Translations under genes and position numbers: made by a program
DNA from: a virus
Length of the DNA: 41,446 nt
Direction: 5' to 3' (one strand)
Virus record (IMG/VR): IMGVR_UViG_3300034279_001140
Coordinates: 1 to 41,446 of that record
The notes under the pieces: generated by a model
What the model was told of the DNA's origin: nothing
What the model saw: the letters and a program-made list of their open reading frames with translations, nothing else
The model's database searches: none
Shown: in pieces, positions 20,546 to 30,886 of the stretch
Layout: the number at the start of each line of letters is the position of its first letter
Numbering within the stretch: position 1 is the stretch's first letter

Positions 20546-20904
20546 TGGCCACAGTAAACGAAACCAACTTTAGAGAAGACTTAACAGTACGAGTGTTTGA
20601 TCGCTTTTACAGTTTTGATGTCAATGTACCGGTTAACGAGTATGATGCAGTGTATTCATACTTTCGCAGTGTGATGACCACAGACCGTGCCGCTGGCAAC
20701 TTTGCTACCAGCCTGTTTAGAATTGCACAAAACACCAACATTCCTGCCATGACTCTACTAGCAGGATTTCAGGGACAGACCGGCGTCAACCTCACAGTGA
20801 ACCTTGCATACTATCTCAACTTGATTCGCAGCAAGGCCACACTGCTGGGGGTGAATGTCAGTGCAACTCCCAACTTCTACGCAGCTCGAGCAGTACTACA
20901 ATGA
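20545..20904 (+). CDS. Small conserved T4-like phage protein, probably structural
   Basis: A 119-residue soluble protein: NFREDLTVRVFDRFYSFDV, VNEYDAVYSYFRSVM, FATSLFRIAQNTNIPAMTLL and a C-terminal LAYYLNLIRSKATLLGV then TPNFYAARAV. I recognise this pattern as a small protein conserved in T4-like cyanophages, but I do not know its function. It is joined to the preceding tube-like gene by TAATG and to gp4 by ATGA, so it is made within the tail/head-completion unit. A minor virion or assembly role is inferred from context. Confidence 0.75.
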   Translation: MATVNETNFREDLTVRVFDRFYSFDVNVPVNEYDAVYSYFRSVMTTDRAAGNFATSLFRIAQNTNIPAMTLLAGFQGQTGVNLTVNLAYYLNLIRSKATLLGVNVSATPNFYAARAVLQ

Positions 20905-21332
20905 GTCGTTGGGCCAACGGACTCTACGAAGTCATCAACGGCGAAAAGTATGTGGGTCGTGGTGTGCCACGATACAGATCAGGATGGGAACACAGCTTTA
21001 TGCGTTTTTGTGACACCAATGACAACATCCTGCAATGGGCCAGTGAAAGCATTGCTATACCCTATATGAATCCTGTGACTGGTCGCAAAAGCAATTATGT
21101 GCCAGACTTCTTGATTATGTATCGCAACAAAGACAACACCGTCAAGGCAGAACTGATTGAGATCAAGCCCAAGAAACAAAGTGTTATTGAATCAAAAATG
21201 AGCAGCAGAGACCGTGCTGTTGTGGCAGTGAACTATGCCAAATGGTCAGCTGCTCAAAAATGGTGTGTTCGTCAGGGCTTGACTTTTAGAGTCATAACCG
21301 AACAAGATATGTTTACCAACGGTCGTAATTGA
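20901..21332 (+). CDS. gp4: Head completion protein gp4
   Basis: A 143-residue homologue of T4 gp4 (150 residues), needed late in head completion before tail joining. The signatures are GRGVPRYRSGWEHSFMRFCDTN, ILQWASESIAIPYMNPVTGR, then NYVPDFLIMYRNKDN and AELIEIKPKKQ. The E(W/H)-PDF-EIKP arrangement (Glu in the early helix, Asp in PDF, Glu-x-Lys in EIKP) is that of a PD-(D/E)XK nuclease-like fold as in TnsA. Translation is coupled to the previous gene by an ATGA overlap. The next gene, gp16, has its own late motif. Confidence 0.88.
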   Translation: MSRWANGLYEVINGEKYVGRGVPRYRSGWEHSFMRFCDTNDNILQWASESIAIPYMNPVTGRKSNYVPDFLIMYRNKDNTVKAELIEIKPKKQSVIESKMSSRDRAVVAVNYAKWSAAQKWCVRQGLTFRVITEQDMFTNGRN

Positions 21333-22472: not shown

Positions 22473-24956
22473 ATGACATTTTTTTACAATCTAAACAACA
22501 AACTAAACGCCATTCGCGATTTGCCCAGTGTCACACACGGACAACTCAACGAGCGTGACATGAGCCGTGCTGCCAAGGGCTACGAAAAGTACGGCAAAGA
22601 AGGCATGGAAGCCTTGGCCAAAGCTGGTCGTGACGGCAAAGCACTGGATCCAATTCGCAAAAAGTACGACAAGTATGACAATACAGAAGTAGACGAAGGC
22701 ATGGGCGACATGGCCCGCAAGGTAGGCGGCATGGTCAAGAAAGTAGCTGGTAAGGCCATGGACACCGTTGGTCACGGTAGTGATGCTGACATGATCCGTG
22801 ATCTACAAAAGAAAATGGGCATGCCACAGACAGGTATGAAGCCAGGCGATGAACCCAATCCCAAGCAGATCAAAGAAAAGATGAGTCCAGCCAAGGCCAA
22901 GAGCTTTGCTGCATTGGCTGAGCCCAAAGACAAGATTACTTTTGCTGACAAGATTGCTGGAGCCAAAAAAGAAGTTGACGAGATGCTGGGTGATGTTGCC
23001 GCTGAAGCAATGAAGCAAGCACTGGGCGGCGGCAAACAAGTTGTTGCCAGCGAAGAGGAAGACCTTAATCCGTTCACAAACTACAAGAAACCACGTGCCG
23101 ACAAACCAAAAGTTGGCAGTGTTGAACGCGGAGCCTTGCATGATATTGAACACACAGCAACTGGACGCAAAGTAACTCGCAGAGTTGATCCGTCTGGTAT
23201 CAGTGTTGGCACCGATGACACACCAGCCAGCGGAGAAAAGCGTGGTCGTGGACGTCCAAAAGGCCCAGAGAAGGCACCTGAGCGTGTGACCGGTGGTGCT
23301 ACCAAGCACAAAGGTGGTCGTAAAATGGCCAAAGAAGGTTCTGATCACGGTCAAGCACAACAAATTTATGACGACCTTGCTGACATTCGTGCAGCGGCAA
23401 AGCAAGCACAGCGCGGAGGCGAATTCCCACAAGGGTTTGCCAGCCGTTTAGAGTCTGTGTTGTATGCAGCAATGACCCTGATTAAAAATCAACAATCAGA
23501 TGGTGCACAAGTTAGAGAAGAAGAAATTGACGAAAAAGCAGTAAGCAAAAAACAACAAAAGTTCATGGGCATGGTTCATGCCGCACAAAAAGGTGAAAAG
23601 CCTGCTAGTAAAGAAGTTGCTAAAACAGCCAAGAGCATGGGCAAAAAAGACGCAGAAGACTTTGCTGCAACCAAGCACAAAGGCCTACCAGAAAAGAAAA
23701 AGTCCGACAGCAAGAAAGAAAAAACTGAAGAAACCGCGGACAACACACCATCCAAAGGCGGCATGAAGTTTGGCGGTGGCATTTATGATTCAATGAATCG
23801 TGATCTTGAAAACATGATCAAAGAAAGCATGGCTCGCTTAGACGAAAGCATGAGCATTAACATGAGCATAAACAACGATTCCCACGGTGGTCCAAGCAAG
23901 AGCCTCACAGTCACTGCCACAGATGAAGATGCAATGAAACTGAGCCAACTGTTGAAGAGTGCAGGACTGGGCGGCGGCAATGATGAAGGCTACGGCGGTG
24001 GTGGCTACAAGCCAGCATGCGGCGAACAAGAAATTGACGAAGTGTCAATGAACGAGCCTGACTACCCAACCAATACAGAAACAGGTAGCTCAATGCAGTA
24101 CTCGGGCGGATTAGATGGTCCTAAGTCAACTGGACAATCAACATTGACAGGTGGCGGCATACCAAATCTGGATGCAGATCGCCAGCACAGCTATGCTGAA
24201 GCTGAAGAAGATGCCTTGCACCGCATGATGGAAATGGCTGGCATGAGCCAGAACAACAGACTTGACGAAGGTATGATGGACAAGTTAAAAAGTATGCTAG
24301 TACCTAAACTAATGAAATTATTAGGTCCAGATGCAGAAAAAATTGCCAGTGCAGTTAAACAAGCAACTGGTGGTGATTTTACTCCTAGCAAAGAAAATGC
24401 CATGAAGGTAGCACAGGCTCTAGGACTTGATAAAGCAGCCGCTCAAGGTCAGTCACCGCAAATGGCCGAAGGCATTGCTGGCAACTGGCAAGGTAAATTG
24501 TATCAGGCACTGTATACTTTGGGTCTACTTGGTTCTGCGGGTGCAGCCACAGCAATGTATGGCACAGTAACCGGCGGCAACATGGCAGTCATTGGCATTC
24601 TACTGTTGATGTTTGCAAACGCATTCTTCGGTGATGCACCTGGTCAATTTGGAGCCATGGGCAAATTTGGTAACAAAGGAACTAGTATGCAAAGAGGTTT
24701 AGACGATCACGGTATGCCTATTAGAAATACTAATGTAGATGAAGACGATCTCAATCGCATGATGGAAATGGCCGGCGTCAAGAAAAAAGAAGTTGACGAA
24801 GAAAAAACTGACGAAGGCAACAAGTTTACTGGCAATCTAGCCAAGGCTCGTGCTGCTGGCAAAAAAGAAGCTGACCTAGACGGTGACGGCGATATGGAAA
24901 AAGTTCGAGAAAGTATTTTTGACTTGACCAATCAATGGAAAGCATACAAAGGATAA
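22473..24956 (+). CDS. Large low-complexity protein with AT-hook-like motif and hydrophobic insert
   Basis: An 827-residue Lys/Glu/Met/Gly-rich protein I do not recognise beyond resemblance to conserved large proteins of marine T4-like phages. An AT-hook-like motif KRGRGRPKGP lies near residues 255-264, inside a basic segment. Residues ~583-589 and ~761-767 carry the same MMEMAG motif, encoded by a near-identical 21-bp repeat. Between them the DNA is more AT-rich and encodes two hydrophobic stretches (about residues 675-697 and 704-720, the latter MAVIGILLLMFANAFFG). The last part is again charged. Several (L/A)xE sites, such as ALAE, could be cut by a prohead protease. I infer an internal virion or procapsid-core protein that may contact DNA or membrane. 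The ribosome site is AAGAGGAT. Confidence 0.7.
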   Translation: MTFFYNLNNKLNAIRDLPSVTHGQLNERDMSRAAKGYEKYGKEGMEALAKAGRDGKALDPIRKKYDKYDNTEVDEGMGDMARKVGGMVKKVAGKAMDTVGHGSDADMIRDLQKKMGMPQTGMKPGDEPNPKQIKEKMSPAKAKSFAALAEPKDKITFADKIAGAKKEVDEMLGDVAAEAMKQALGGGKQVVASEEEDLNPFTNYKKPRADKPKVGSVERGALHDIEHTATGRKVTRRVDPSGISVGTDDTPASGEKRGRGRPKGPEKAPERVTGGATKHKGGRKMAKEGSDHGQAQQIYDDLADIRAAAKQAQRGGEFPQGFASRLESVLYAAMTLIKNQQSDGAQVREEEIDEKAVSKKQQKFMGMVHAAQKGEKPASKEVAKTAKSMGKKDAEDFAATKHKGLPEKKKSDSKKEKTEETADNTPSKGGMKFGGGIYDSMNRDLENMIKESMARLDESMSINMSINNDSHGGPSKSLTVTATDEDAMKLSQLLKSAGLGGGNDEGYGGGGYKPACGEQEIDEVSMNEPDYPTNTETGSSMQYSGGLDGPKSTGQSTLTGGGIPNLDADRQHSYAEAEEDALHRMMEMAGMSQNNRLDEGMMDKLKSMLVPKLMKLLGPDAEKIASAVKQATGGDFTPSKENAMKVAQALGLDKAAAQGQSPQMAEGIAGNWQGKLYQALYTLGLLGSAGAATAMYGTVTGGNMAVIGILLLMFANAFFGDAPGQFGAMGKFGNKGTSMQRGLDDHGMPIRNTNVDEDDLNRMMEMAGVKKKEVDEEKTDEGNKFTGNLAKARAAGKKEADLDGDGDMEKVRESIFDLTNQWKAYKG
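24222..24776 (+). repeat. Pair of 21-bp direct repeats flanking a hydrophobic insert
   Basis: Copies at 24222-24242 and 24756-24776 start CGCATGATGGAAATGGC and end GGC, differing at one base (T or C at position 18). Both encode RMMEMAG in the same frame. They bound a more AT-rich segment coding for the hydrophobic part of the 827-residue protein. Confidence 0.75.
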
Positions 24957-24960
24957 TATC

Positions 24961-25128
24961 ATGAGCAAAATTCTAAAAGAATCTGTGTTTACCACTGTGC
25001 CAGTGTTAAACCCACATGCACCTGCACCACAAACAGGTCGTCAAACACCTGTGGAAATTCCAGGGGTGATGTATCAAACTCGTGAACTGTTTCAACCTGT
25101 GGTTAGTCAACCTGAGGACAAGAAATAA
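24961..25128 (+). CDS. Small unknown protein, 55 residues
   Basis: A short gene starting MSKILKESVFTTVPVLNPH and ending SQPEDKK, with an AAGGA ribosome site 9 nt upstream. Its stop codon overlaps the next start (TAATG), which supports it being real. It is Pro/Val/Thr-rich with no helix-forming core or membrane segment, so it is probably extended. ILKE near the N-terminus has the LxE form cut by T4-type prohead proteases, as in its neighbours. I do not recognise the family; a minor virion component is inferred from the gene cluster. Confidence 0.65.
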   Translation: MSKILKESVFTTVPVLNPHAPAPQTGRQTPVEIPGVMYQTRELFQPVVSQPEDKK

Positions 25129-25421
25129 TGCCAGCCAATGTATACACCACTTTGGCCAATGCCACAGTGTACACTGACAAACTGCAGATCTCCACAGCAG
25201 CCAATGCAGTGACATATCAGTCTTATGCAGTGGCTCTAGGCTCTGCTAGTCCAGCGGGCAACATTTATTCAGCTGCAATTACTATTCCTGCCAACACAGT
25301 GTTTGAAGTATATGCTGGCGCTGGTAACAAAGTCACAGTGACTGGTACACCGTTCACAGCTTTGGAATTGGGCACAGCTAGTTCTGCTACTGCTGGCGTC
25401 TACAATTCAGCAGGGCAGTAA
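25128..25421 (+). CDS. Small beta-rich protein, possibly virion decoration
   Basis: A 97-residue Ala/Thr/Val-rich protein (MPANVYTTLANATVYTDKLQ, then AAITIPANTVFEVYAGAGN and KVTVTGTPFTALELGTA). The alternating pattern suggests a small beta-sandwich, as in decoration or fibre-tip proteins. There is no signal peptide or Cys. It is coupled on both sides by TAATG overlaps (25126-25130 and 25419-25423). Function unknown; a structural role is likely from composition and position. Confidence 0.65.
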   Translation: MPANVYTTLANATVYTDKLQISTAANAVTYQSYAVALGSASPAGNIYSAAITIPANTVFEVYAGAGNKVTVTGTPFTALELGTASSATAGVYNSAGQ

Positions 25422-25792
25422 TGCGAGCACAAGAGTTTATCACTGAGCGTGACGGCAAAATAGGTAAACGTCGTCAAGCAGCCACAGTGGGCCTGACCAT
25501 ATTTGGCGATGGCGAACGTGCCAACAGTGACTACACTCTGAATCGCGTGATGATGGCCGTGGCCATGGCTGACGGATCAGGCGATGTGTTAGACATGGAT
25601 GAAAAAAGTTGGATAGGAAAAAAACGTGGCGCCTATCCATACACTAGAATTGAACACGAAATGCTGAAACAAGCATTTAAGGCAGCAGGCGCTGAATATA
25701 AAGATTTGAATTTGGGCGACCTAGATTCAGAAGAACTAGAGAGCACCAACAAACAAAGCCCTATCAAAGCATTTCGGGGCTACCCAAGATGA
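25421..25792 (+). CDS. Paralogous packaged-type protein A
   Basis: A 123-residue protein starting MRAQEFITERDGKIGKRRQ and ending SPIKAFRGYPR. The first nine residues resemble the T4 capsid targeting sequence MKTYQEFIAE, with a predicted prohead-protease site after ITE. The middle reads SDYTLNRVMMAVAMADGSG, then DMDEKSWIGKKRGAYPYTR. Its downstream neighbour shares both the start motif and the C-terminal motif, so the two are paralogues. It is coupled upstream by TAATG and downstream by ATGA. Proteins with this start occur in marine T4-like phages as hypotheticals. A head-packaged protein delivered with the DNA is an inference. Confidence 0.75.
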   Translation: MRAQEFITERDGKIGKRRQAATVGLTIFGDGERANSDYTLNRVMMAVAMADGSGDVLDMDEKSWIGKKRGAYPYTRIEHEMLKQAFKAAGAEYKDLNLGDLDSEELESTNKQSPIKAFRGYPR

Positions 25793-26175
25793 GAGCTCGC
25801 GAGTTCATTGCGGAACAAAAAGACTTGTCTCCTGAACAAGCAGCTCCTATGCGGCACACTTATGTGATTCCTGGTCTCAGTGCCGCTGACCCTTACAACA
25901 ACTATAGATTTGGTGTAGCAATGGCCAGAGCCCGTAGCGATGCAGGTACAGATGGCATTAACGCCAAGTTTCCTGCCTGGGACTCAGAAACAGCATTTGG
26001 TGAACACGGCGTTGTTGCTGGAATGAATGCAGGTATAGCTCAAATAATTGATACTGCATTGACCATGACTGCCACACCCGGTGGCAAACGACTAGTATCA
26101 ACTCCTGACAGCACTGAACCCACATTTGTGGACACACAAAGTCCTGTTAAAGCATTCCGGGGCTACCCACGCTGA
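25789..26175 (+). CDS. Paralogous packaged-type protein B
   Basis: A 128-residue protein starting MRAREFIAEQKDLSPEQ and ending SPVKAFRGYPR. The start REFIAE is even closer to T4 QEFIAE than that of its upstream paralogue. The middle (NNYRFGVAMARARSDAG, then NAKFPAWDSETAFGEHG) aligns loosely with the neighbour around NRVMMAVAMADG. The pair therefore keeps both ends and varies in the centre. The gene starts within the stop of its paralogue (ATGA). The following gene, a secreted nuclease, starts 23 nt later. Possible role: internal head protein; unproven. Confidence 0.75.
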   Translation: MRAREFIAEQKDLSPEQAAPMRHTYVIPGLSAADPYNNYRFGVAMARARSDAGTDGINAKFPAWDSETAFGEHGVVAGMNAGIAQIIDTALTMTATPGGKRLVSTPDSTEPTFVDTQSPVKAFRGYPR

Positions 26176-26198: not shown

Positions 26199-26642
26199 AT
26201 GAAAAAACTACTACTCTCTCTACTACTGATTCCATGCTTGGCATTTGCACAAGTCAAAGCACCCAAAGAACCTGTAGGCGTGACCTATGACGCACAAATC
26301 ATCCGCATAAGTGATGGCGATACTATTGTGATTTCTGCACCATTCTTACCAGCACCACTCAAGCCAGAACTAGCAGTGCGTATCTACGGTGTAGATACTC
26401 CGGAAAAAGGACACAGAGCACAGTGCGCCCAAGAAGATCAACAAGCCCAAGCAGCCAGTGCATGGACCACACAGTTGATCAAGAGCGCACCCAAGCATCA
26501 AGTTATCCTGTACAAGTGGGACAAGTTTGGTGGTCGAGTCATTGGTGATATCATTGTAAATGGGCAAAGTGTGCGCCGCGGATTGATCGCCAATGGTCAT
26601 GCCCGTGAGTACTATGGTGAAGCCAAAACATCTTGGTGCTAA
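26199..26642 (+). CDS. Secreted thermonuclease (staphylococcal nuclease family)
   Basis: A 147-residue protein with an N-terminal Sec signal MKKLLLSLLLIPCLAFA, likely cut after Ala17; the Cys13 context (LIPC) is a poor lipobox. The SNase domain has Asp41 (DGDT), Arg61 and Asp66 (RIYGVDTPE), Thr67, Glu69 and Arg113 (KFGGR). These sit at the same spacing as Asp21, Arg35, Asp40, Thr41, Glu43 and Arg87 of the S. aureus enzyme, so it should be active and calcium-dependent, cutting DNA and RNA. The location would be periplasm or outside the cell. The gene lies in the island between gp16 and gp17. Possible uses are degrading incoming rival DNA or scavenging nucleotides; both are inference. Confidence 0.92.
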   Translation: MKKLLLSLLLIPCLAFAQVKAPKEPVGVTYDAQIIRISDGDTIVISAPFLPAPLKPELAVRIYGVDTPEKGHRAQCAQEDQQAQAASAWTTQLIKSAPKHQVILYKWDKFGGRVIGDIIVNGQSVRRGLIANGHAREYYGEAKTSWC

Positions 26643-26685: not shown

Positions 26686-27375
26686 ATGACAAGCCAACAA
26701 TTCAGCATCGCAGATCGTCCATGGCTAATACCCTGCGGCTGTGACGATCTCATAAGAATTGGCACAGACAGCGACGGCGGATATATCACTTCTAGGCAAG
26801 CAGTTGATGCTAGCCAACATCTTTTGGTTTTAGGTATCGGGGATGACTGGAGTTTTGAGAGAGACTGGCACAAGATCAATCATCACAGTGATATAGACTG
26901 TTGGGATGGCACAGTAGAGATTCCCAAAAACTCAGATTTTTATGCTCTAGGTCTACGTCATAATTGTGTAAACGTGTTGGGCTACAACTCAGCAGGCTCA
27001 GAGAATTTGCAAAATATTTTTGACAATATTGCAACCAATGATATTTTTGTCAAAATAGACATCGAAGGCCACGAAGAAGCCATGATAGATATTCTTGTAA
27101 GACAACATTCTCGTATCACTGGTTTGATTATGGAGTGGCATCGCACTTGGGCTCCAGATTTTCAAGATAAAATGCAGATTTTACAACAACACTTTTCTTT
27201 GATACATGTGCATGCCAACAATGCTGGACCTATTTGTAATGACTTTCCTGAGGTATTGGAATTGTCTTTTGTTCGCCGCGGCATTAAACAAGTCTTGCCC
27301 AGGACAGATCTATATCTTGACATAGATTATCCAAATACGTCAATGGCACCTGAATATGTTTTAGTTGTGTCCTAA
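26686..27375 (+). CDS. FkbM-like methyltransferase
   Basis: A 229-residue protein. The SAM-binding part appears as HLLVLGIGDDWSFERDW, and the FkbM signature is IFVKIDIEGHEEAMIDIL near residues 120-140, followed by GLIMEWHRTW. The family mostly O-methylates sugars or small molecules; the acceptor cannot be told. The DNA is noticeably more AT-rich than the adjoining radical SAM gene (several 60-base lines near 25-37% G+C), suggesting separate acquisition. It lies between the thermonuclease and the radical SAM gene, with gaps of 43 and 54 nt and no clear ribosome site. Together with the GDP-mannose dehydratase and glycosyltransferases in the window it could take part in glycan decoration. Confidence 0.8.
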   Translation: MTSQQFSIADRPWLIPCGCDDLIRIGTDSDGGYITSRQAVDASQHLLVLGIGDDWSFERDWHKINHHSDIDCWDGTVEIPKNSDFYALGLRHNCVNVLGYNSAGSENLQNIFDNIATNDIFVKIDIEGHEEAMIDILVRQHSRITGLIMEWHRTWAPDFQDKMQILQQHFSLIHVHANNAGPICNDFPEVLELSFVRRGIKQVLPRTDLYLDIDYPNTSMAPEYVLVVS

Positions 27376-27417
27376 CGTGTTTACATTATTGAAAACCGCA
27401 GCCTGAACCAACAACGC

Positions 27418-27425
27418 TGTAAATA
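27418..27425 (+). promoter_or_regulatory. Late promoter-like motif for the radical SAM - SGNH - gp17 unit
   Basis: TGTAAATA ends 4 nt before the ATG at 27430 (spacer CGGG). If used, the transcript would begin at or inside the start codon. Confidence 0.5.
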
Positions 27426-27429
27426 CGGG

Positions 27430-28569
27430 ATGACAAATTTCTTTTGCGCAGCCCCTTGGCGTGGGCTGCATATCAATCCCCGTGGTGATGTCAAAACCTG
27501 CTGTGCTGGTGATCCCAACATGCTGGGCAATCTCAACAGCAACACCATCACAGAGATACTGGATTCAGATCTCTTGAAACAAATACGCGGCGAAATGTCA
27601 CAGGGGCGAGCACACAAATACTGCTCTAACTGTGTGCAAGCTGAACGCTTTGGCGCAGACTCAGAACGCAAGTGGCACAACGATACCAACCCCAACTTTG
27701 ATTATGCCACAGCCGGAGACCAGTATCACTATCCTGTGATTGTGGACGTGCGTTGGAACACCACCTGTAATCTTAGCTGTAACTATTGCAGTGAATGGGC
27801 CAGTTCAAAATGGTCAGCACTCAAAGGCATTCCTTTCAAGTCAGGGTCAAGACCCTACTATGAACAAGTATGTGATTTTCTTGAACAGCACAAATCGCAC
27901 ATCCGAGACGTAGCCCTAGTGGGCGGTGAGCCTTTGTTGCTGCCTGAAAACGAACGACTACTGGATGTCATCCCAGAAGACTGTGCTGTGACCTTGATCA
28001 CCAACATGAACGTGGACTTGGGCAAGAACAAGATTTTTAAGAAACTAGCACAAAGAAAGAAAGTTGGCTGGAGCATGAGCTTTGACAACATTGGTGCACA
28101 GTTTGAATATGTGCGCTACGGTGGTGACTGGAACATGCTGACAGAAAATTTAGCCATAGTCAAAGACTTGTTCAAACAGGGACAATGGGGCGGCATTCAT
28201 GCAGTGTACAACATCTACAATGCCACACGCATCACAGAGTTCCGTGAATGGGCAGTGAGCCAAGGAGTCACAGTGTTGTGGCAGAATCTATTTCAACCTG
28301 ACTACCTGGATCCATTCTCGCACGGACCTGCAGTGGCTCAAGCAGCAGCAGATGAAATTGAACGATTCTATGCCACTGGTCTTGCAACACCAGCAGAGCG
28401 ACAGTTCTTTGACAATGCCTTGAACACATATCGTGCAATTGCACAAGCACGTTCTGGTATTGAATCCAAATTTCGTCAACACATCACTGAGATTGAAACT
28501 CAGTACCACAAGGATCAAGCTGGCAAGTTTGTGGAGTTGTGGCCTGAACTTGCACACTTAACACAATGA
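27430..28569 (+). CDS. Radical SAM protein with N-terminal SPASM/twitch-like cluster domain
   Basis: A 379-residue protein. The radical SAM cluster motif CNLSCNYC places Cys113, Cys117 and Cys120 in the CX3CX2C form, followed by VALVGGEPLL near residues 161-170 (the GGE motif for SAM). Ahead of it, Cys6, Cys24/Cys25, Cys65 and Cys68 (FCAAPWRGLHINPRGDVKTCC, then YCSNC) form a SPASM/twitch-like auxiliary cluster domain at the N-terminus rather than the usual C-terminus. The family performs radical chemistry on peptides or small molecules; the substrate is unknown. The stop overlaps the SGNH hydrolase start (ATGA), and that gene overlaps gp17 the same way, so all three are probably co-translated. 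The final ~60 residues are helical. Confidence 0.88.
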   Translation: MTNFFCAAPWRGLHINPRGDVKTCCAGDPNMLGNLNSNTITEILDSDLLKQIRGEMSQGRAHKYCSNCVQAERFGADSERKWHNDTNPNFDYATAGDQYHYPVIVDVRWNTTCNLSCNYCSEWASSKWSALKGIPFKSGSRPYYEQVCDFLEQHKSHIRDVALVGGEPLLLPENERLLDVIPEDCAVTLITNMNVDLGKNKIFKKLAQRKKVGWSMSFDNIGAQFEYVRYGGDWNMLTENLAIVKDLFKQGQWGGIHAVYNIYNATRITEFREWAVSQGVTVLWQNLFQPDYLDPFSHGPAVAQAAADEIERFYATGLATPAERQFFDNALNTYRAIAQARSGIESKFRQHITEIETQYHKDQAGKFVELWPELAHLTQ

Positions 28570-29303
28570 AGCCATTACACGCCTGGAGTAGCCATGCAGG
28601 ACAAACTGTGAATTGGATCAGTCCTGACACTAAAGAAAATTATCAACAGCACATGAGCGACCCTGCCAAAAGACTTATGCTGCAACAATTTAACTGGGTG
28701 GACCAAACCATTGATTACACATTCAACAGTGACGGATTCAGAACTGATGAATTTGACAGCAGACAAAATTTTGTAGCGATTGGATGCAGTTTTACTCAAG
28801 GCACTGGAGTAGCAGAACATGAACGCTGGACTACAGTATTGAGCAAAATGTTAAACCTATGGTGCTGGAACCTAGGCATTGCTGGTGCAGCCAGCGACAC
28901 CTGTTATCGCATAGCACGTTACTACTTGGCAAAACTACGGCCACGGTTTGTGGTGTTCCTGGAACCTCGCGCCAACAGAATTGAACTGCACACTGACCTT
29001 GAGCAACCACCACATCTGATTAACTGGGCTTATGACCAAGCCAACTGGGGCTCAGGCTCATTTGTGAAAACCATGCTGGCACACGATGAAAATCTAGAGA
29101 TTAGAGCTGAAAAGAATCGAGCAGCCGTTGCACATGTTTGTGATCAACTGGGCATTCCTGTGGTGATGTATGCACCCAATGACTACAGAGACCTTATAAC
29201 AGACAAAACACAACTGGACCTTGGTAGGGACCTCCTGCATCCTGGCAGGTTAAATAATCGTGCATTTGCGCAAGTGGTGTACAATCACGTGAAAGATTTA
29301 TGA
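28566..29303 (+). CDS. SGNH/GDSL-like hydrolase
   Basis: A 245-residue protein. Block I is AIGCSFTQGTG with nucleophile Ser75, block II is NLGIAGAASD (about residues 102-111), and the C-terminal block V is DLLHPGRLNN with the Asp222-x-x-His225 pair. There is no signal peptide, so it should act in the cytoplasm or within the virion. The superfamily includes esterases and acyltransferases that add or remove acetyl groups on glycans; the substrate is unknown. It is sandwiched between the radical SAM gene and the large terminase by ATGA overlaps on both sides. A TTAAATA at 29250 inside its end might serve as a promoter for gp17. Confidence 0.82.
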   Translation: MKPLHAWSSHAGQTVNWISPDTKENYQQHMSDPAKRLMLQQFNWVDQTIDYTFNSDGFRTDEFDSRQNFVAIGCSFTQGTGVAEHERWTTVLSKMLNLWCWNLGIAGAASDTCYRIARYYLAKLRPRFVVFLEPRANRIELHTDLEQPPHLINWAYDQANWGSGSFVKTMLAHDENLEIRAEKNRAAVAHVCDQLGIPVVMYAPNDYRDLITDKTQLDLGRDLLHPGRLNNRAFAQVVYNHVKDL

Positions 29304-30886
29304 GTATCAAACCCACATTAGATACGGTGCTAGTAAAATCACCGCACCGTCGAGAAACATATACACAGGAGCAGTTGACTGAGTTTGCTCGCTGTGCTGA
29401 TCCTGTAAGCGGGCCCATGTACTTCATGGACAACTTCTTTTACATTCAGCATCCCACACGTGGCAAGATGTTGTATCAGTCTTTTGAATATCAAAAACGT
29501 CTGATTGCAAACTATCACAACAGTAGATTTTCAATTTCTTTGATGCCGCGACAAACTGGTAAGTCAACATCAGCAGCAGGTTACCTGTTGTGGTATGCTA
29601 TGTTTGTGCCTGATGCTACTATTTTGGTTGCTGCACACAAATACCTAGGTGCACAAGAAATCATGCAGCGTATCAGATATGCATACGAACTGTGTCCCAA
29701 TCATATACGTGCAGGTGCTACCAGCTACAACAAAGGCAGTCTGGAGTTTGACAACGGATCACGTATTGTATCGCAAACCACTACAGAAAACACTGGTCGA
29801 GGTATGTCAATTACCTTGTTGTATCTGGACGAATTTGCGTTTGTGCGCCCTACTATTGCTCGAGAGTTTTGGACTTCTATTACACCCACACTCAGCACAG
29901 GTGGTAAAGCCATTATTACTTCAACCCCCAACTCCGACGAAGATCAGTTTGCGTTGATCTGGAAAGGTGCCAACAAAATTGAAGACGAGTACGGCAACCC
30001 TAGGCCCAATGGGCTGGGCATCAACGGCTTTAAAGCGTTTCGTGCATTCTGGCGTGAACACCCAGATCGAGATGACACCTGGGCCGAAGAACAACGAGCA
30101 CAGCTGGGCGAAGAACGATTCCGCAGAGAAATGGACTGCGAATTTGTTATCAACGATGAGACCTTGATATCGCCACTAAAATTGTTGGACCTAGAAGGTG
30201 TAGAACCTGCCAGCAAAATAGGACAAGTGCGTTGGTATAGACCCATACAAGCAGACAAGATATACATTGTGGCCCTAGACCCTAGCTTAGGCACAGGCAG
30301 CGATCCTGCCGCCATACAGGTGTTTGAAGCAGATACCACAGAACAAGTGGCTGAATGGCGTCATAACAAAACAGATGTGCCCACACAGATCAAGATCTTG
30401 GTGGACATTGTAAAAGAACTGCATGCTGTGGTCAAAGACGACAAAAAGATCTACTACAGTGTGGAAAACAACACTCTAGGCGAAGCAGCCTTGATCAGTA
30501 TCAACGAATACGGCGAAGAAAACATTCCTGGCTATTTCCTCAGTGATAATTCAGTGCAGGGCCAGCACGGACGACGAACTCGCAAGGGATTCACAACCAC
30601 CAACAAAAGCAAGATTGTGGCCTGCAACAAGTTCAAGATCTTGGTAGAATCAGGGCGTATGAAACTGTACAGCAAACCCTTGATCTCAGAACTCAAAAAC
30701 TTTGTGGCGCTGGGCAGCAGCTATGCAGCCAAACCTGGAGAAACAGATGACTTGGTAATGAGCACTTTGCTGGTTACCCGCATGCTGATGTTGTTGCAAA
30801 CTTATCACCAAGAACTAGATTCGCATCTGAAAGATCACGGGGACAATATCATAGAACCTATGCCTTTCATTAGCATGATGCGCTAA
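29300..30886 (+). CDS. gp17: Terminase large subunit gp17
   Basis: A 528-residue packaging motor ATPase and headful nuclease. Walker A is MPRQTGKST (residues 82-90), Walker B with catalytic Glu is LLYLDEFAF (173-181), followed by the coupling motif IITSTPNS. The RNase H-like nuclease domain starts with YIVALDPSLGTGSD (metal Asp) and later has DDLVMSTLL with the last catalytic aspartate. T4 gp17 has 610 residues; this one lacks some N-terminal length but all motifs are present. Its start lies in the stop of the SGNH hydrolase gene. It works with gp16 (21348-21839), the portal (not in this window) and gp4. Confidence 0.98.
   Translation: MSIKPTLDTVLVKSPHRRETYTQEQLTEFARCADPVSGPMYFMDNFFYIQHPTRGKMLYQSFEYQKRLIANYHNSRFSISLMPRQTGKSTSAAGYLLWYAMFVPDATILVAAHKYLGAQEIMQRIRYAYELCPNHIRAGATSYNKGSLEFDNGSRIVSQTTTENTGRGMSITLLYLDEFAFVRPTIAREFWTSITPTLSTGGKAIITSTPNSDEDQFALIWKGANKIEDEYGNPRPNGLGINGFKAFRAFWREHPDRDDTWAEEQRAQLGEERFRREMDCEFVINDETLISPLKLLDLEGVEPASKIGQVRWYRPIQADKIYIVALDPSLGTGSDPAAIQVFEADTTEQVAEWRHNKTDVPTQIKILVDIVKELHAVVKDDKKIYYSVENNTLGEAALISINEYGEENIPGYFLSDNSVQGQHGRRTRKGFTTTNKSKIVACNKFKILVESGRMKLYSKPLISELKNFVALGSSYAAKPGETDDLVMSTLLVTRMLMLLQTYHQELDSHLKDHGDNIIEPMPFISMMR

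Follow-up and report, generated by a model that had tools for sequence, protein, structure and literature searches.

A tagged pair of predicted internal head proteins in uncultured T4-like jumbo phages

We found that two overlapping genes, A and B, in a 41,446-nucleotide virus record (IMGVR_UViG_3300034279_001140; the whole stretch analysed is called the window) most probably encode a new core family of T4-type internal head proteins. We infer their targeting, cleavage and packaging, and the docking role of their C-terminal tail, from sequence comparisons. In the model that we favour, A and B would be translationally coupled paralogues of an uncultured T4-like jumbo myovirus. Their N-terminal MRAxEF would act as a capsid targeting sequence (CTS) and is expected to attach to the scaffold core during assembly; within the prohead, a gp21-type protease would then clip off the tag at [IVL]xE, after E9, leaving a neutral mature protein of about 114 (A) or 119 (B) residues in the head. 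The family-specific tail, SPVxxFKGYPR, would most likely dock mature A/B to another head component. The pair would be a fixed core part of the head rather than an exchangeable effector. Exchangeable cargo with acetyltransferase, ADP-ribosyltransferase-like, kinase-like, ParB-like, lysozyme and chitinase domains would receive the same tag, and some of this cargo would be synthesized as polyproteins with additional [ILV]xE cleavage sites.

The A/B pair and its locus

The pair and its surroundings comprise the following features:

20901..21332, plus strand: T4 gp4-like head closure protein, marking the head-gene neighbourhood (phrog_218, E = 1e-40)
22473..24956, plus strand: 827-aa multidomain protein, a conserved neighbour (39/39 loci)
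25128..25421, plus strand: 97-aa ORF directly upstream of A, its stop overlapped by the A start (TAATG); 36/39 full-length loci
25421..25792, plus strand: ORF A, predicted internal head protein subfamily A, 123 aa; single-copy in all 18 large related records
25421..25447, plus strand: N-terminal tag of A, MRAQEFITE, predicted CTS; cleavage expected after E9 (base 25447)
25526..25690, plus strand: central two-helix domain of A, residues 36-90 (AlphaFold2; helices 36-49 and 76-89; mean pLDDT 79, pTM 0.49)
25757..25789, plus strand: C-terminal motif of A, SPIKAFRGYPR (sequence, family conservation)
25789..26175, plus strand: ORF B, predicted internal head protein subfamily B, 128 aa; start overlaps the A stop (ATGA)
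25789..25815, plus strand: N-terminal tag of B, MRAREFIAE, predicted CTS; cleavage expected after E9 (base 25815)
25891..26070, plus strand: central two-helix domain of B, residues 35-94 (AlphaFold2; helices 35-52 and 83-94; mean pLDDT 77, pTM 0.44)
26140..26172, plus strand: C-terminal motif of B, SPVKAFRGYPR (sequence, family conservation)
29300..30886, plus strand: large terminase subunit, the other flank of the conserved block (phrog_36964, E = 5e-115)

The window covers part of a T4-like contractile-tailed phage genome and encodes tail sheath and tube, a sheath stabiliser and the gp4-like protein together with terminase, uvsX, uvsY and single-strand binding protein; gp21 and gp23 are absent from this fragment and were seen only in relatives. 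Both ORFs are intact. As the initial annotation had pointed out, the overlapping products share their first nine residues (7/9 identical, MRA(Q/R)EFI(T/A)E) and their last eleven (10/11 identical, SP(I/V)KAFRGYPR), and neither motif recurs elsewhere in the window. Comparison with PHROGs and Pfam gave nothing useful (one HTH_47 match, far below cut-off). When 50,697 phage records were searched by tblastn with A, B and two divergent family members as queries, only noise and no cultured-phage homologue came up, and genome contigs yielded a single weak, partial and uninformative match in a MAG. By contrast with these searches, IMG/VR contained 113 relatives of A and 65 of B, and an iterated profile search collected 284 distinct relatives and fused A and B into one family, all of these being raw numbers without phylogenetic correction. 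Because the uncultured contigs that carry them reach 352 kb, we assign the family to a jumbo phage group. Some of the collected loci were picked by the tag itself, and carriers per genome are therefore counted in the 18 large records. Two to four tandem A/B-type genes occur at four loci (L058, L031, L113 and L045).

Exactly one A and one B, adjacent to each other, are present in 18/18 large records, and the order gp4-like, 827-aa, 97-aa, A, B, SNase, terL is nearly constant across 39 full-length loci. The A/B locus is thus a core head-gene block, unlike the T4 internal protein (IP) genes. Directly 3' of the pair, at window positions 26199-26642, lies the gene for a Staphylococcal-nuclease-like protein with a signal-peptide-like N-terminus (MKKLLLSLLLIPCLAFA), kept in this place in 31/39 loci. 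Between it and the terminase gene (26686-29303) are FkbM-like methyltransferase, radical SAM and SGNH-hydrolase-like genes, insertions that vary among relatives.

The centres of A and B had been described as strongly different. Their sequences do differ, but profiles from which both ends had been removed still align (HHalign probability 93-95%, E = 5e-8), which indicates that the centre is one diverged domain rather than two unrelated payloads; the idea of unrelated centres was dropped on this result. AlphaFold2 models both proteins as two helices with extended tails, the helix arrangement being uncertain (pTM 0.49 and 0.44), and neither model has an enzyme-like fold. Fold searches returned nothing in the PDB and one uncultured phage protein (E = 2e-3). 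Both mature proteins are approximately neutral (19 K+R versus 18 D+E in A, 11 versus 12 in B), lacking the basic character that is typical, although not strictly defining, of T4 internal proteins.

The initial annotation took the centre to carry a varying effector function. On such a view A and B could be injected to counter host defence or take over the host, much as T4 IPI* is, and the conserved C-terminus would form part of the effector surface. Their small size and the tag that they share with cargo bearing effector-like domains speak for this reading, as does an A/B-type domain fused between ADP-ribosyltransferase-like and acetyltransferase-like domains at locus L264. We nevertheless consider it unlikely, because one pair occupies one fixed place with conserved neighbours in 18/18 large records, both paralogues are kept and no enzyme-like fold is predicted; the IP genes of T4 differ in this respect, their conservation among relatives not being high (PMC9026906). 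The varying effector function proposed for the centre is not supported for A/B, in which the centre appears to be one conserved domain at a fixed core locus. Variable centres do exist, on other genes that share only the N-terminal tag.

The N-terminal tag and the protease site at its end

The tag is present in 278/278 A/B relatives with a readable start, some of which begin with GTG; the remaining six of the 284 are mostly cut by contig ends. Among 150 members from loci collected independently of the tag, R2 and F6 never vary and A3 (98%), E5 (97%) and E9 (99%) rarely do; position 7 is I, V, L or M, and positions 4 and 8 are free. Conservation falls sharply at residue 10, directly after E9, and [IVL]xE with E9 is found in 149/150. 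The predicted mature N-termini are RDGK... in A and QKDLSPEQAAPMR in B.

Both terminal motifs were searched for in related uncultured phage records: in the 18 large records a relaxed tag pattern matched 60 times and the C-terminal pattern 35 times, with zero matches for either pattern reversed. Outside the A/B family, 96 tagged proteins form at least 35 clusters that cannot be aligned to each other. A propeptide common to proteins with unrelated mature parts is a feature of T4-type internal head proteins; here the predicted propeptide is found across 35 clusters. The large records also encode a gp21-type protease (PF03420, 14/18) and gp23 (PF07068, 15/18), with head genes in the order portal, core, protease, gp22, gp23.

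The mature parts of tagged proteins, without the tag, were searched against all ORFs, so the result is not circular. Where untagged homologues lay inside longer proteins, E directly preceded the homology in 42/47 junctions (background 6.7%) and [ILVMF]xE in 34/47 (background 1.9% in the same proteins); 15 different cargo queries contribute to the 47 junctions, which include related sequences, and homologous junctions are not independent. In one example, the sequence that follows MRAQEFITE in a gene of its own (GKLSVDVPNEAW) corresponds to one that follows TVTE inside a 482-aa protein (GKLSVDVPNEEW). Because the internal joints keep only xE and not MRAxEF, they suggest that the first half of the tag targets and the second half is cut, in agreement with T4 mutational data (PMC9026906). 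In addition, the gp23 of this clade reads YLKE followed by NASAGSTSAGNIAT, and small tagged proteins read MRASEFIAE followed by NASAGGTSSGSIAT. These small proteins copy the sequence after the LKE of gp23, so the end of the tag coincides with gp23's own predicted site. The earlier proposal of a T4-like CTS with a site after E9 thus has strong computational support from the 35 clusters, the junctions, and the protease and gp23 of the relatives.

We then compared the frequency of [ILV]xE with shuffled expectation. In mature A/B the motif occurs at 0.37 of expectation (45 versus 122.9; 142 non-redundant sequences), a depletion of about 2.7-fold, and every A/B subfamily is depleted. The ratio is 0.33 in mature gp23, as compared with 1.37 in 21 other window proteins, 1.47 in long untagged ORFs and 1.96 in the gp22-like scaffold. 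With this depletion, mature A and B resemble proteins that need to persist in the compartment of the protease. Other tagged cargo is not depleted (1.02), so site avoidance supports A/B and not every tag carrier.

These ratios also bear on the idea that A and B belong to the scaffold-core proteins of the T4 gp67/gp68 kind, which are cut into fragments and lost from the prohead instead of remaining in the mature head. The core locus, the fixed pair and the adjoining site-rich 827-aa protein would suit such a role, but core proteins destined for destruction abound in sites (gp22-like, 1.96) whereas A/B avoid them (0.37), and we regard this explanation as improbable. The 827-aa protein itself contains 19 [ILVM]xE sites (11.2 +/- 3.0 in shuffles), several of them at domain edges, and a DUF3008-like domain (below cut-off) begins 2 residues past an IDE site; it may be a core protein or a polyprotein that the prohead protease cuts.

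Conservation of both ends within the family, as in any paralogues, would also be expected if A and B were ordinary, non-packaged paralogues with MRAxEFIxE and SPxKxFKGYPR as parts of the fold or of translation initiation. This is very improbable, because a translation or folding signal explains neither the spread of the tag over 35 unrelated clusters, nor the retention of xE alone at junctions, nor the avoidance of protease sites by mature domains.

The C-terminal motif and the wider tagged cargo

All 35 matches of the C-terminal pattern lie at A/B C-termini. The motif, which the initial annotation had put forward as a new element, is real and new but specific to the A/B family; its role as a general second targeting signal was dropped, given that 35/35 sites in the 18 records are A/B ends. 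Among 266 full-length members, SP[VIL] is kept in 249 and FxGY in 237. Some subfamilies vary the tail to SPVAKPKRNKYGV or SPVANWM types, a variation that fits a short docking motif; the divergent members L113, L006 and L081 end in SPVAKPKRNKYGV instead of SPVKxFKGYPR. An SxE about 16 residues before the end is found in 264/266 full-length members, its S and E nearly invariant, and T4 Alt and gp21 do have C-terminal propeptides (PMC9026906), but a C-terminal propeptide removed after this SxE is scarcely credible in A/B, because SxE falls outside the [ILV]xE specificity of the clade, proline is often next to it, and the L264 polyprotein keeps the C-terminal motif on its B domain, the next site (ISE) coming after the motif.

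Among the tagged cargo proteins, Pfam matches over cut-off include acetyltransferases and lytic transglycosylase/LysM and GH19 chitinase domains. A polyvalent-type kinase match fell below the Pfam cut-off, ADP-ribosyltransferase-like and ParB-like proteins were recognized by eye, and many of the 20 cargo proteins scanned with Pfam gave no named domain. An enzyme bearing a CTS has a precedent in T4 Alt.

Five multidomain tagged proteins (L345:1273-2718, L332:1070, L333:5434, L337:3933 and L264:2824) contain domains that elsewhere are encoded as tagged genes of their own; [ILV]xE sites link these domains, and the proteins are candidate prohead-processed effector polyproteins. In the L264 protein, a B-type domain stands between ADP-ribosyltransferase-like and acetyltransferase-like domains, joined at FNE and ISE. 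In such polyproteins, a single N-terminal tag would bring a string of effectors into the prohead and the maturation protease would cut the [ILV]xE joints, so that capsid maturation would double as effector processing, with A/B and the C-terminal motif as the conserved docking component; we judge the arguments for and against this extension to be about evenly balanced.

Two further arrangements involve the gp23 N-arm. On the minus strand of L099, a 257-aa ORF combines an A/B-type domain, a spacer and a gp23-arm-like segment (AVEE followed by SATAGATSSGNVAS). Small tagged proteins of 60-75 aa (L333:8704-8904, L344:1552, L040, L048, L332:3095 and L339) have a mature N-terminus that copies the mature gp23 N-arm, NASAGxTxSGxIAT; some of them carry variant tags such as MRAHEIME or MKIRDILE.

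The tag provides a sequence handle on proteins that would be packaged and injected by an uncultured jumbo phage group, which are normally known only from virion proteomics, and yields a testable list of candidate effectors. Its two halves appear to divide the work, MRAxEF being required only once, for targeting, and [ILV]xE at every joint, for cleavage, and A/B add a conserved, predicted internal head protein family with a distinctive C-terminal motif. Because the tag is only nine residues long, it could also be used to direct proteins into T4-like heads.

Relation to known systems

CTS biology and polyvalent proteins are already known (PMC9026906, PMC5694885, PMC5512222). No description of the tag, of the A/B family or of prohead-protease joints in cargo polyproteins was found in the literature searched, which covered few subscription papers.

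By gp23, the closest cultured relatives are Pseudomonas phage PA5oct (Arenbergviridae), Vibrio 2.275.O and Sinorhizobium Phosso, and neither the tag nor A/B was found in these three. PA5oct resembles the group in its gp23 (identity about 65%; the site is shared and reads FLVE followed by NASAGATQAGNIAT) and in the order portal, core, protease, gp22, gp23, but differs in having no MRAxEF tags and no detected A/B homologue.

T4 itself offers the nearest parallel. The statement that T4 internal head proteins start MKTYQEFIAE is true of IPII and IPIII (T4 record), which are tandem small internal proteins with a short N-terminal EF[I]xE propeptide, as predicted for A/B; in T4, 10 residues of the CTS suffice, and different residues account for targeting and for processing (PMC9026906). 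The gp21-type protease, gp23 and gp22-like scaffold of the T4 system are also present in related genomes of this group. By contrast, the tag here is MRAxEF[IVL]xE, A/B carry a family-specific C-terminal motif, and the mature proteins are dissimilar to IPI-III (with no PHROG or cultured-phage match above noise), are not basic and are kept as core genes.

The inner head and ejection proteins of phiKZ and SPN3US (PMC5694885) are similar in that these jumbo phages process many internal proteins with a T4-like prohead protease and have paralogues with identical processed N-termini (gp53/gp54), but there the propeptides are long and the motifs of A/SxE type, whereas here the tag has nine residues and the T4 motif. 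Polyvalent proteins (Iyer et al. 2017, PMC5512222) share acetyltransferase, kinase, ParB-like and lysozyme domains, in single and multidomain form, with the wider tagged set. A/B are single-domain and not effector-like, and several disparate effector domains in one polypeptide are found only in other tagged proteins; their domains are joined at [ILV]xE sites, which suit the prohead protease, rather than at sites for an embedded peptidase domain as in polyvalent proteins.
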